The notes beneath the pieces are model-generated. The model had not been told where the DNA came from and did no database searches. It saw nothing but the letters and a program-made list of their open reading frames with translations. Positions 6,520-51,990 of a stretch of DNA of 64,000 bases are shown here, piece after piece (position 1 is the first letter of the stretch; each line of letters starts with the position of its first letter). The translations under genes were made by a program, and so were the position numbers. Source of the DNA: an uncultured Prolixibacteraceae bacterium (GTDB lineage Bacteria; Bacteroidota; Bacteroidia; Bacteroidales; Prolixibacteraceae); contig CAILJH010000114.1 of the NCBI GenBank assembly GCA_903834475.1, forward strand, positions 1-64,000, written 5' to 3'.

Positions 6520-6530
6520 AACGAAAACTT

Positions 6531-6611
6531 GTCATTCATTGTCATTGGTAGTCATTTGTTGCTGCTCAGAAGTAAACTGAGATTACCAAAAGACGACCAA
6601 TGACAATGAAA
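6531..6611. repeat. Inverted array of 10-nt words after the esterase gene
   Basis: The left part reads as three successive 10-nt words beginning GTCATT (6531-6560). The right part, reverse-complemented, has similar phasing. Outer arms 6535-6549 and 6596-6610 are perfect 15-nt inverted repeats, and an inner CTCAG...CTGAG pair closes the loop. It may act as a terminator. It resembles in plan the 7-nt word arrays at 40342, 50471 and 51401. Confidence 0.65.
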
Positions 6612-6634: not shown

Positions 6635-6793
6635 CTAGTGTTGTGTTAACTTAATTCTGACAAGTACCAGTCACCCCGAATTCATTTCGGGGTCTCATTC
6701 TATTAAGGGATGCCGAAACAAGCCTTCGACGTGAGCTCAGTCGAACGTTCGGCATGACAATGCATCGATTCTTGATTAAGACAACACTAATAG
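6635..6793. mobile_element. MITE-like element, about 159 bp
   Basis: Terminal inverted repeats TAGTGTTGTGTTAA (from 6637) and the reverse complement TAGTGTTGTCTTAA (ending about 6791) match at 13 of 14 positions. Inside lie two further palindromes: ACCCCGAATTCATTTCGGGGT (6672-6692) and TTCGAC...GTCGAA. There is no coding capacity and no transposase in the window. The right end overlaps the upstream part of the marC ORF given in the ORF track, which argues that marC really starts at 6820. Confidence 0.7.
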
Positions 6794-40311: not shown

Positions 40312-41292
40312 ATGAAAAGCAATATATTTCAAAGAAAAAATGCTGCAAGCCACAAGCCACAAGCTTCATGCTTTAGCTTGCAGCTTGCAGCTTGCAGCCG
40401 GAATCTGTATAATCTGGCATTCTTTCTGTTCGTTGCCTCAACCATACTGAGTTCGTGCGAAGACGTGATTGACGTTAAACTGAGCAAAGAAGATTTGAAC
40501 CTGTTTGGAGTTGAGGCCCGAATTACCACATTGGATGGACCAACAGTTTTTCTTTATCAAACCCTGAAGGTTGATCAGGATATCAGCTATCCGGGAATCA
40601 GCGGGGCAGTAATTACGGTTTCGGATGGTGCAACTCCTGCCAATAAAATTAAACTTACCGAAGATCAGGCAAAACCCGGACATTACAGTGTTCCAAAAAA
40701 ATCGAATTACTTTGGTGTTGCCGGCCGGGAATATACGTTAAGCATCCTGTCTTCAGGAATCACTTTAACTGCAAAAGAAAAACTGTCGAAGGTTGAGCCG
40801 CTCGATTCAATCGTGGTTAAGCCGTCGATGCGCGGAAATAAAATTTTCCTTGGAATTTTTACCTATGGAAGAGAACCTGCAGGATTGGGAAATTTCTACA
40901 AATGGGATGTGTTTGTGAACGACACACTGCTAAATAAAGCCGACCGGATATCAATAGCAAGTGATGAATTTGTTGATGGAAACTACATTCCGGGACTGGA
41001 AGTCTATACTGATTTTCATGATCAGAAAAAACCGAAGGATCGCAAACTGAATCTGAATGATATGATTGTAGTAAAACAAAACTCGATTTCTGAATTTGGG
41101 TATAATTTCTATTTTCAGATGATAAACCAAAGCAGTACCGGTTCACTGTTCAGTATTCCACCGGCAAATGTAAAAAGCAATTTCACTTCGAGCGACGGGA
41201 GACCGGTACTGGGACTATTTGCTGCAGAAGACGTTTCGGTCTCCAATATTGTTGAAATTAATCAGGCCATTGAAGACCAGCTGACAAAATAA
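40312..41292 (+). CDS. DUF4249 family lipoprotein
   Basis: A 326-residue cell-surface lipoprotein that pairs with the upstream TonB receptor. The lipobox is LSSC at about residues 45-48, followed by EDVIDVKL, typical of DUF4249. The signal peptide is unusually long: between MKSNIFQ and NLYNLAFFLFVAS lies a ~20-residue Cys/Ala/Gln/His-rich stretch encoded entirely by an inverted array of 7-nt words (40342-40398), so the leader seems to carry an in-frame insertion. A hairpin (41265-41309) spans the stop codon. Confidence 0.85.
   Translation: MKSNIFQRKNAASHKPQASCFSLQLAACSRNLYNLAFFLFVASTILSSCEDVIDVKLSKEDLNLFGVEARITTLDGPTVFLYQTLKVDQDISYPGISGAVITVSDGATPANKIKLTEDQAKPGHYSVPKKSNYFGVAGREYTLSILSSGITLTAKEKLSKVEPLDSIVVKPSMRGNKIFLGIFTYGREPAGLGNFYKWDVFVNDTLLNKADRISIASDEFVDGNYIPGLEVYTDFHDQKKPKDRKLNLNDMIVVKQNSISEFGYNFYFQMINQSSTGSLFSIPPANVKSNFTSSDGRPVLGLFAAEDVSVSNIVEINQAIEDQLTK
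40342..40398. repeat. Inverted 7-nt word array inside a signal-peptide region
   Basis: Left words GCAAGCC-ACAAGCC-ACAAGCT and right words CAGCTTG-type repeats form 24-nt inverted arms (about 20 of 24 pair) around TCATGCTTT. The 57-bp unit is a multiple of three and keeps the DUF4249 frame open. Confidence 0.75.
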
Positions 41293-49034: not shown

Positions 49035-49320
49035 GAGATTGTCTGACTCCAAATTTCAATTTCAACTGTGCTAATCAAGTGGTGTCTTCTGTAACCAAGG
49101 GTTTCAAAGGTTTTTCGAAAGCAATGAATTCGCATATTCTACTACTCCTTCGGAGTCGAACGAAATGGAAGATGCTTCCATTCTATAAACCTTTTAACCT
49201 CTCAGAGGTCAGAATATCTGATTAGTGAGATTGACACTGCTATTTGGTAGGAGTACTCAAATATTTTCCGGAGATAAACCGGATAGGATACCAGGCCGCC
49301 AGGAAACCAATACCGGTAAC
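49035..49320. repeat. Intact-side copy of the direct repeat flanking the ATPase gene
   Basis: This stretch comprises the last 81 bp of the lolC/E-like gene and about 205 bp downstream. It matches 47580-47815 with several gaps, the largest being about 50 bp (CTACTACTCCTTCGGAGTCG and following) present only here. Edges are estimated by eye. Confidence 0.65.
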
Positions 49321-50472
49321 GAGAAGAAAAATGGCTGCCAGATCGCCAATCCGGATTTCGACCGGGTAACTCGAAAAGATGAATGAACCTTCGTTGCCCG
49401 GAATTTTCAGAATTCCGTATTTAATCTGGATCCAGCAGATCAGGATTCCCAGGATCAGGCCGAAAACAGCTCCGCATAATGAAATCATCCAGCCTTCAAA
49501 AAGAAAAATGGTGCGGATCAGTTTCTGGTTGGCACCCATGCTCTGAAGAATAGCAATGTCTGCCCTTTTGTCGATAATCAACATCGAGAGCGATCCCAGA
49601 ATATTGAAAGAAGCGATAACAAGGATAAATCCGAGAATGATAAAAATGGCCCATTTCTCGGATTTCATCACCCGGTAAAAGAGTTCATGCTGCTCAAACT
49701 GTGTTTTTACCACAAACTTTTCGCCCATTATCCGGCGAATTTCAGGCTGCACGGATTCTCCCGAAACGCCTTTCTTTAATCCAAGTTCCACCGCACTGAT
49801 GCGGGTTCCCATTTGAAATAATTCCTGCGCATATCCGAAAGGAACCAACATGTATTTCGAATCGATTTCCTGCTGGTTGGCAAAAATTCCGGAGGCATAA
49901 ATAGTGCTGTGATTAAACGCATTGGCCAGCGTTGGCCGGCCATTGACGCCCTTTTTCAGGGTATAAATATGTACCGGATCGGTAAAATTTAGGCCCACCG
50001 ATAAATAGTAGGCCACTCCCTGGCCAACTACCGCATAGGGAACTTGTTTGGCTTCGAGAAGAAACCGGCCGCTGGTAATGCAACTGGTGTCGAGACCTGA
50101 AGTTTCACTGTAATTAACCGGTACTCCTTTGACTGTGGCAAAATATTGGCGGTCGCCATACCGAAGCAGCGCATCTTCTTCAATAACCGGAGTTACCGAT
50201 ACAATTCCATTCAAACTTTTAAGAGCATCAAAATCACCATCTTTCAGCTCGAAGGATTTGCCTTTGACTGCCGATATTTTGATATCCGGATCGAACGACG
50301 AAAACAAGGTTTTGATGGAAGTATCGAGACCGTTGAAAACAGAAAGGATGACAATCAATGCAAAGGTGCCAACGGTTACTCCTGCAATCGAGATTCCGGA
50401 AATGATGTTGATTACATTCACCGATTTTTTCGAAATCAGGTAACGGCGGGCGATATAGAAGGCAGTTTTCAA
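49240..50472 (-). CDS. LolC/LolE-type ABC transporter permease
   Basis: A 410-residue FtsX-family permease, likely part of the complex that releases lipoproteins from the inner membrane towards the Lol chaperone. A helix near 20-45 is followed by a periplasmic MacB-like domain (about 50-260) and three helices (about 275-300, 320-350, 375-395). The opening ARRYLISKKSVNVINIISGISIAG is highly typical. The start codon is TTG at 50472: an in-frame TAA lies two codons upstream, and a 7-nt word array directly abuts the start. No ATPase subunit gene is adjacent. Confidence 0.88.
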   Translation of the reverse strand: MKTAFYIARRYLISKKSVNVINIISGISIAGVTVGTFALIVILSVFNGLDTSIKTLFSSFDPDIKISAVKGKSFELKDGDFDALKSLNGIVSVTPVIEEDALLRYGDRQYFATVKGVPVNYSETSGLDTSCITSGRFLLEAKQVPYAVVGQGVAYYLSVGLNFTDPVHIYTLKKGVNGRPTLANAFNHSTIYASGIFANQQEIDSKYMLVPFGYAQELFQMGTRISAVELGLKKGVSGESVQPEIRRIMGEKFVVKTQFEQHELFYRVMKSEKWAIFIILGFILVIASFNILGSLSMLIIDKRADIAILQSMGANQKLIRTIFLFEGWMISLCGAVFGLILGILICWIQIKYGILKIPGNEGSFIFSSYPVEIRIGDLAAIFLLVTGIGFLAAWYPIRFISGKYLSTPTK

Positions 50473-50569
50473 TGGTTAATGATTAATGGTCAATGATCAT
50501 TTAACTGGAATCCTATTATTCATCGATTCAAAATAACAAATTATCATTTATAATTCATCATTAACAATT
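50471..50569. repeat. Inverted array of 7-nt words filling an intergenic gap
   Basis: Left arm: four phased heptads AATGGTT, AATGATT, AATGGTC, AATGATC (50471-50498). Right arm: TTATCAT, TTATAAT, TCATCAT, TAACAAT (50541-50568), whose complements follow the same AATKRTN pattern. The array spans the whole gap between the permease start (50472) and the methyltransferase stop (50572). Confidence 0.8.
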
Positions 50570-50571
50570 TT

Positions 50572-51393
50572 CTATTTCCAGGCTTTTACGATTAAGCCGG
50601 TTCCACTTTCGTGTTTCATATACAGATCGAAAAAATTCAGAACCAGGGCAAACGGAAAAACAAGCAGGTAATAAAACGGCAGAATCACGAAGTACAATTT
50701 GCTGGCTCCAAGCATGAGTATCGGGCATTTCATCGACAGTTTCCATGATATTTTCCCGGGCGTACCGTATGAATAGCGCGCTTCAACCTTCGAAAACCCG
50801 GCAGATTTCAGCTTGGTTTCAATTTCAGTGATGTTGTAACCGTCGCGAACATGTTCGTCGATAAAACCGTGAACCCCTTCTTCGTGATCGTGATCATGCG
50901 AGTCGGATCCACCCTGATCGGAAGGAGTTGAAATCAGCAATAATCCACCTTTTTTCATTGACGCATGAAAATTTCGGAAAACTAAAACATCTTCCTCAAT
51001 GTGCTCCATCACATCAACCGAAAGAACCAGATCGTACCGTTCATTTTCCTGAAATTTAGTCAGGTCGGCCAGTTCGAATTTTACGCGACCGTCCAATCCA
51101 GCCTTTTGCATAAACTGTGTACAGTCCTCAATTTGTTCGGGTTTGATGTCAACCGCTTTAATTCCGGCCTTCGGAAACCAGAGGGCCATGCGGTAAGTAT
51201 ATTGACCGAATCCTGAACCTGCGTCCAGAATGGTTTTTACTTCAGGAGTAGCAAGTGAGCGTTGCCGAAGCTCTTTACGGATGTGCCAGGCCCGAAGCAA
51301 AAGCAAATCGAGCAAATGGTAGAATAACCTGCGCAAAACCGGATTCTGGTTAAAAACACTTCCCAGCGAACGTTTTATCGGATCGTATTGCAT
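50572..51393 (-). CDS. Class I SAM-dependent methyltransferase
   Basis: A 273-residue methyltransferase. Motif I is ILDAGSGFGQYTYRM (about 55-69), an acidic motif II is VKFELADLTKF, and LVLSVDVMEHIEED (about 125-138) is the post-II region of UbiE/COQ5-type folds. A His/Asp-rich stretch (SDHDHDHEEGVHG-like, about 170-180) is unusual. The C-terminal ~50 residues are hydrophobic and may hold the protein at the membrane, pointing to a lipid or envelope substrate; the exact one is unknown. Confidence 0.82.
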   Translation of the reverse strand: MQYDPIKRSLGSVFNQNPVLRRLFYHLLDLLLLRAWHIRKELRQRSLATPEVKTILDAGSGFGQYTYRMALWFPKAGIKAVDIKPEQIEDCTQFMQKAGLDGRVKFELADLTKFQENERYDLVLSVDVMEHIEEDVLVFRNFHASMKKGGLLLISTPSDQGGSDSHDHDHEEGVHGFIDEHVRDGYNITEIETKLKSAGFSKVEARYSYGTPGKISWKLSMKCPILMLGASKLYFVILPFYYLLVFPFALVLNFFDLYMKHESGTGLIVKAWK

Positions 51394-51400
51394 TTTTATT

Positions 51401-51485
51401 AATCTTGAGCGTTAGAATATTAGAGTCTTGAGTATTCGGGTTCAGAATTGTTTTCACTCAAGATTTGAAATTAGAAATTCAAGAT
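51401..51485. repeat. Second inverted 7-nt word array in the next gap
   Basis: Right arm: heptads TCAAGAT, TTGAAAT, TAGAAAT, TCAAGAT (51458-51485). Left arm (51401-51440) carries AATCTTGAG, GAGTCTT and GAGTATT words in looser phase. It fills the 91-bp gap between the methyltransferase start and the rbfA stop. The word differs from the array at 50471. Confidence 0.65.
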
Positions 51486-51823
51486 TATTCCTTGAGTAGT
51501 CGGTCAATGTTGTCGATGTAATCGAGACTGTCGTCGATATGAAAGTCGAGTTGAGGAACAATCCGGAGCTGTTTCCCGACTTTTAAGCCAAGCAATCCTC
51601 TTATTTTGGAGGTATGTTTTTTGATTTCGAGCAATGTTTCGGCCCCTTTTTCAGAAGGAAAAATGCTCAGGTAAATCCTGGCAATAGATAGATCCGGCGT
51701 AATCCTCACATTCGTTACACTGACCAAAATCCCATGAAACAGATCTTTGCCTTCTTTTTGCAGAATGTCCGCAAGGTCTTTCTGCAACAGTCGTGATATT
51801 TTATTTTGACGGGTCGTTTCCAT
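51485..51823 (-). CDS. rbfA: Ribosome-binding factor A
   Basis: A small KH-fold protein needed for 30S maturation. With the start at 51823 (METTRQNKISRLLQKDL) it has 112 residues, the normal length; the track start adds ten residues not seen in the family. The pattern DLSIARIYLSIFP and the C-terminal LDFHIDDSLDYIDNIDRLL are diagnostic. It is followed by the methyltransferase and permease genes on the same strand. Confidence 0.93.
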   Translation of the reverse strand: METTRQNKISRLLQKDLADILQKEGKDLFHGILVSVTNVRITPDLSIARIYLSIFPSEKGAETLLEIKKHTSKIRGLLGLKVGKQLRIVPQLDFHIDDSLDYIDNIDRLLKE

Positions 51824-51990
51824 GGTATTTGTATTTGAAAAATTAGGTTTCAAAGGTAGTTAAAATTGTTTGAACAACAGGAAGCCCAATTGGTTCTAAG
51901 CTTCGAATATGCTATCTGTTATTCCGGGATCGTTTATTTTCCTTAAGTTCGCACGCTGAAATTTTCTCCTTTTTCCTTTTTCTTTAATTT

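Follow-up and report, generated by a model that had tools for sequence, protein, structure and literature searches.

The window, by which we mean the whole 64,000-nt stretch of DNA that was analysed, comes from contig C114 of G000, a metagenome-assembled genome of the Prolixibacteraceae that is 66% complete. Three genes follow one another on its minus strand in the order rbfA, SAM methyltransferase and LolE/FtsX-type permease. Their boundaries were set by a simple ORF rule, and their names, taken from sequence features, are presumptive. The genes and the repeat arrays around them are as follows.

49240–50472, minus strand: open reading frame with a TTG start, presumably a LolE/FtsX-type permease gene
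50471–50498, plus strand: left arm of the array, four heptads AATGGTT AATGATT AATGGTC AATGATC (lag-7 shuffles; TRF period 7/14)
50499–50541, no strand: loop of about 43 nt between the arms, read from the sequence; a search of the genus matched the arms only, and the loop is not common to other loci
50542–50569, minus strand: right arm of the array, inverted heptads AATTGTT AATGATG AATTATA AATGATA as read on the minus strand from 50569 to 50542 (lag 7; inverted repeat with the left arm)
50572–51393, minus strand: open reading frame, which we take to be a class I SAM methyltransferase gene
51394–51484, minus strand: gap between the rbfA and methyltransferase genes with a type A (CTTGAAT) array (lag-7 p=0.03, inverted repeat p=0.03 in G000)
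51485–51853, minus strand: open reading frame, which we assume to be rbfA (ribosome-binding factor A)
51963–51985, plus strand: lone heptad array (TTTTTCC), not inverted, upstream of rbfA (lag-7 region, 0/100 shuffles)

The array at 50471–50569 fills the 99-nt gap between the methyltransferase and the permease genes (50473–50571) and overlaps the TTG start codon of the permease gene (50472–50470) by two bases. Both its phase and its inverted repeat exceed what shuffled sequence yields. The left arm (50471–50498) has 17 of 21 possible matches at lag 7, which none of 2000 dinucleotide shuffles equalled, the right arm, taken over 50534–50569, is periodic at lag 7 with p=0.0035 in the shuffle test, and the array as a whole forms an inverted repeat with 32-nt arms that are 81% complementary (0/200 shuffles as good). 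An initial annotation of this DNA had described inverted heptads that fill the permease–methyltransferase gap, and this description is borne out. Its word form AATGRTY, given for both sides, is right for the left arm but too narrow for the right arm, which is looser since its minus-strand words, listed above, include AATTGTT and AATTATA beside AATGATG and AATGATA. The array has the tandem 7-nt units above chance that characterize heptameric simple-sequence-repeat arrays, and it has arrays of the same word lying close together in opposite orientation, as described for Xanthomonas; the AATGRTY words contain no G-tract and are not G-rich words capable of forming a quadruplex. Folding is predicted to be weak, with −18.6 kcal/mol and z −1.54 for RNA and z −1.20 for DNA. 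A scan of the operon for promoters and terminators found no terminator-like site within the array, and the number of promoter-like matches over the operon was close to the shuffled mean; two of these matches fall inside the array, one on each strand, and are indistinguishable from chance.

The initial annotation saw the same plan at 51401, 40342 and 6531, and this is true of the three sites to different degrees. The site at 51401, in the rbfA–methyltransferase gap, is weak in G000, where only one arm is periodic (p=0.0035, as against 0.09 for its partner) and the hairpin reaches a marginal p=0.03. The other two are strong, and they are the following.

40342–40398, plus strand: inverted heptad array (CAAGCCA / AGCTTGC), in frame in a lipoprotein open reading frame (40312–41292) ahead of the signal peptide (shuffles, inverted repeat)
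6529–6610, plus strand: hairpin of 10-nt words (GTCATT family; inverted repeat, lag 10)

At 40342–40398 each arm beats all 2000 shuffles at lag 7 and the hairpin has 24-nt arms at 83%, but this array is inside a gene, where it follows the start codon and precedes the lipoprotein signal peptide. A lag-7 array is found at this N-terminal spot in 15 of 21 species, in frame and with words that differ among species. The N-terminal extensions span 18 to 79 residues (window 40312–40470; loci L193–L213), and two of the 21 species (G003 and G005) have a bare 18-residue signal peptide. The sister species G021 is identical to G000 at this array, and the arrays are therefore not simply hypermutable. The 6531 site is a strong hairpin of 10-nt words, with 24-nt arms at 92%, in which the left arm has a clear lag of 10 (p=0.0015) and the right arm does not (p=0.16), and GTCATT arrays that resemble it are found elsewhere in the genome of the window. 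Just downstream of it, at 6670–6760, we also observe palindromic repeats, namely CACCCCGAATTCATTTCGGGGTC and a pair GATGCCGAA...TTCGGCATGACA.

Heptad arrays are met across the genus, for which we used a set of 23 genomes, mostly metagenome assemblies and one per species, with samples of about 0.4 Mb per species. One member, G011, is assembled into a single contig, and the array pattern holds there too. Intergenic arms at lag 7 numbered 18, 18 and 13 in the samples of three genus members; lags 5–6 and 8–13 averaged about 8, 7 and 4 arms in the same samples. Intergenic regions that beat all of 100 shuffles at lag 7 made up 14 of 202 in G000 and 9 of 208 in G011, where about 2 were expected; in three further genera of the family, which lack the excess, they made up 2 of 204, so that the periodicity test proposed by the initial annotation came out in favor of a 7-nt phase. 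Other Bacteroidales have sporadic arrays (11 of 278 regions beat 200/200 shuffles). That the arrays are chance patterns in AT-rich spacer DNA could draw on the weakness of the 51401 site and on lag 11, which in the intergenic sample of G000 has just as many arms as lag 7 (18 each; it is less frequent in G011 and G022). Against this stand the genus-wide excess and the shuffle tests at the 50471 locus, by which chance is already refuted for 50471–50569, and we regard it as a scarcely credible explanation in general.

Dispersal of the arrays in the genus is chiefly intergenic, the in-frame array at 40342 being an exception, and the arms adjoin genes: 32 of 49 lie at most 10 nt from a start or stop codon (KS p=7e-8 vs uniform placement). 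The inverted symmetry seen at 50471 is a minority trait among the heptad arms of the genus. A significant partner in the arm's own flank is inverted for 10 of the 49 arms and direct for another 10, where about 2 would be expected for each; since direct partners are as frequent (p=0.57), inversion is not the rule. Inverted similarity to the own flank nevertheless exceeds inverted similarity to other loci (p=0.001).

Orthologues of the methyltransferase are present in 19 of 22 genus relatives. The methyltransferase–permease gap measures 1–18 nt in 8 of 20 species and holds arrays of other words in most of the others, and among the gaps long enough to test, only that of the window species has a significant inverted repeat. 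The 50471 array is absent or different in every relative, the sister included. No target site duplication was apparent by eye between occupied and empty gaps, in a comparison where the empty gaps have only 1–18 nt and the nearest species with an empty gap is not the sister. We infer that the 50471 array probably has no conserved role and is a tolerated spacer whose hairpin is weak.

The rbfA–methyltransferase gap, which is near zero in length in outgroup genera, falls into several types within the genus: type A (CTTGAAT) in six species, type B (TTCAAAG) in four or five, type C (CAGTGTTCAGTCT, 13 nt) in four, other sequences in three, and empty in two. In a three-protein tree sister pairs disagree in type (G000 has A and G021 has B; G011 has A and G017 has C), and the tight clade of G010, G014, G008 and G006 has, in this order, A, an empty gap, C and an empty gap. 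Between G000 and G021 the 60-nt flanks of this gap are 93–98% identical and the gap itself 48%, and the arrays have therefore changed within the gap. Type A is more conserved than its flanking genes in the six species that carry it (82–99% identical, the genes there mostly 72–86%), yet it is absent or replaced elsewhere, including in a sister species. Type A is either constrained or exchanged in a very short tract. The arms of type C contain 2+2 words in G009 and G019 and 1+1 in G017, a symmetric change in words of 13 nt that is seen with one genome per species.

The conservation of type A is one of two observations that could speak for functional RNA or DNA elements which selection maintains, for instance as hairpins in mRNA, as terminators or as sites for regulators. 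The second concerns type C, whose right-hand words are followed by at least four T in 11 of 46 cases, against a background of 7%, with 9 of these 11 in terminator orientation. Part of the type C family may therefore terminate transcription, and judged from sequence a subset of its arrays looks like bidirectional terminators. Selection for a function is difficult to reconcile with the loss or difference of the 50471 array in all relatives and with its weak fold and its lack of a terminator-like site; there is furthermore no match to Rfam in the window above the gathering threshold, and no covariation was found in type A among 15 pairs tested. We consider such an explanation of the arrays unlikely. 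The contrary reading named in the initial annotation, a conserved functional leader in sister genomes, is false for the 50471 gap; it keeps some force at the rbfA gap, through type A.

The initial annotation also supposed that each locus has private words, which is not the case, as the words turn up again at numerous loci and across many species. Words of the 50471 array recur in 14 of the 23 genomes, none of which holds a second full-length copy of the array. In G016 the type B words were counted at 44 places, in G000 at none. Type C is present tens of times per genome and often fills gaps of 70–80 nt between convergent genes. The inverted 13-nt family CAGTGTTCAGTCT (L264–L289, L260–L263) is dispersed and often flanked by A-runs and T-runs. 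Loci selected by BLAST lean towards the query and are used for description only. Seeding of the words from the ends of the adjacent genes was tried as a local source and ruled out (mean p about 0.5).

Families of this kind raise the possibility that arrays are copied between loci and species as cassettes, by short-patch gene conversion or another templated insertion. The species-specific abundance of the type B and type C families, at tens of places per genome, would fit such copying, as would the confinement of replacement between sisters to the gap. Some type C copies at different loci are alike through the loop too, a likeness that is biased because the query to which the chosen loci had to be similar already contained the loop. 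What copies of related word families have in common is mostly the words, however, while loops and flanks differ; the type B apex recurs at one orthologous locus only, and no copy of type A was found outside its own gap. Cassette copying seems to us possible but doubtful, and it stays alive as a rival because local slippage misses the species-specific abundance of the word families.

The reading that we favor, with a probability of about one half, is that slippage, together with template switching at hairpins, makes the arrays at gene boundaries that tolerate them, and that a whole array is replaced from time to time. The 50471 array would then be one member of a population of degenerate heptad arrays that extends through the genus. 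Tandem 7-nt copies would come from slipped-strand replication of a short word, the phase being kept as letters change. Intrastrand template switching could write a complementary arm wherever such a copy folds back, and so produce an inverted array. Arrays would persist where insertions are tolerated, chiefly at gene boundaries, which would explain why they fill gaps that are nearly zero in relatives, and loss or replacement of a whole array does happen at times between species. The periodicity, the inversion, the placement beside genes, the empty or differently filled gaps and the disagreement between sisters are direct observations. We infer slippage and template switching as the cause from the anatomy of the arrays and from the literature. 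Polymerase slippage has been proposed as the cause of heptads (PMC4692102), PMC4679880, drawing on earlier work, reports that in many bacterial genomes no class of longer simple repeats is more abundant than heptads, and template switching is reported to create hairpins (PMC8794818). A copying or slippage process that makes inverted arrays had been suggested by the initial annotation, and the fixed phase with drifting letters, the lag-7 excess in the genus and the gaps that are empty or hold other words agree with it, but as a maker of inverted arrays in particular it fits less well, inversion not being the rule. Several findings count against slippage: word families are common to several loci and their abundance differs by species, neither of which local slippage predicts, the words do not come from adjacent gene ends, lag 11 equals lag 7 in G000, and the arms are not preferentially inverted.

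Inverted heptad arrays have been published before, in Xanthomonas and in the Nostoc trnL intron. The GGGAATC repeats of Xanthomonas, with 70 and 75 cases of close, oppositely oriented array pairs (Rehm et al. 2015, PMC4692102), are like the arrays described here in being degenerate intergenic heptads, there mostly of about 4 units, that recur in the same gaps of related species, where length and sequence vary. They form one G-rich, quadruplex-capable family, whereas here there are many AT-rich families that often differ between sisters at the same gap. In P6b of the Nostoc trnL intron (class I TDNGATT, class II NNTGAGT; PMC4476775) complementary heptads likewise occupy the two sides of a stem and one word class has repeatedly been replaced by another, but this takes place inside a group I intron stem, whereas here it concerns many loci in spacers or ahead of a signal peptide. 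The TAACTGA heptamers of Beggiatoaceae, Cyanobacteria and some Bacteroidetes (PMC4679880) are also intergenic near start codons, with shorter, repeat-free gaps in close relatives; unlike the present arrays they are direct repeats of one fixed word and almost never inverted. New in the present case are the diversity of the words, a series of gaps within one genus that stand empty or have been refilled, and arrays that lie in frame before a signal peptide.

A genus with genomes from more than 20 species, whose short gaps are empty in one species, filled in another and refilled with different words in a third, offers a natural series for the study of how arrays arise, how hairpins form from tandem words and whether cells use them. 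The in-frame arrays ahead of the lipoprotein signal peptide mean that the array-forming process alters proteins as well. We put forward, as a tentative idea, that a specific process beyond slippage alone or any known transposon swaps whole word arrays at fixed gene boundaries of this genus, and also in frame in the lipoprotein gene ahead of its signal peptide, and that word families increase in one species while its relatives lack them.

A kinship with miniature mobile elements, such as the BrickBuilt MITE of Porphyromonas gingivalis, had been raised by the initial annotation. BrickBuilt (PMC4596501) is similar in that it consists of imperfect intergenic tandem repeats in a Bacteroidota genome with predicted long stem-loops; its 23-nt units, leader, tail and IS5-like terminal inverted repeats were not found here. 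No mobile-element ends were found at the 50471 array, and as neither multiple copies with conserved ends nor a second full-length copy turned up in the 23 genomes, membership in BrickBuilt or another MITE family is not supported. More generally, movement as MITE-like elements, or as REP elements moved by RAYT transposases, would be compatible with the dispersal of several word families and with the Y1 transposase genes (PF01797) present in all 23 genomes of the genus, at 1–11 copies each. The lack of conserved ends and the differing loops and flanks argue against it, and heptad arrays are absent from the flanks of all four Y1 genes that could be read, at which a RAYT/REP origin was rejected; mobile elements are a very improbable source of the arrays.

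Three of these four Y1 (RAYT-like) genes are flanked instead by GC-rich palindromes, for example CCCAAGGCAACGCCTTGGG (L013:8250–8770, L022:2870–3900, L144:14740–16120).
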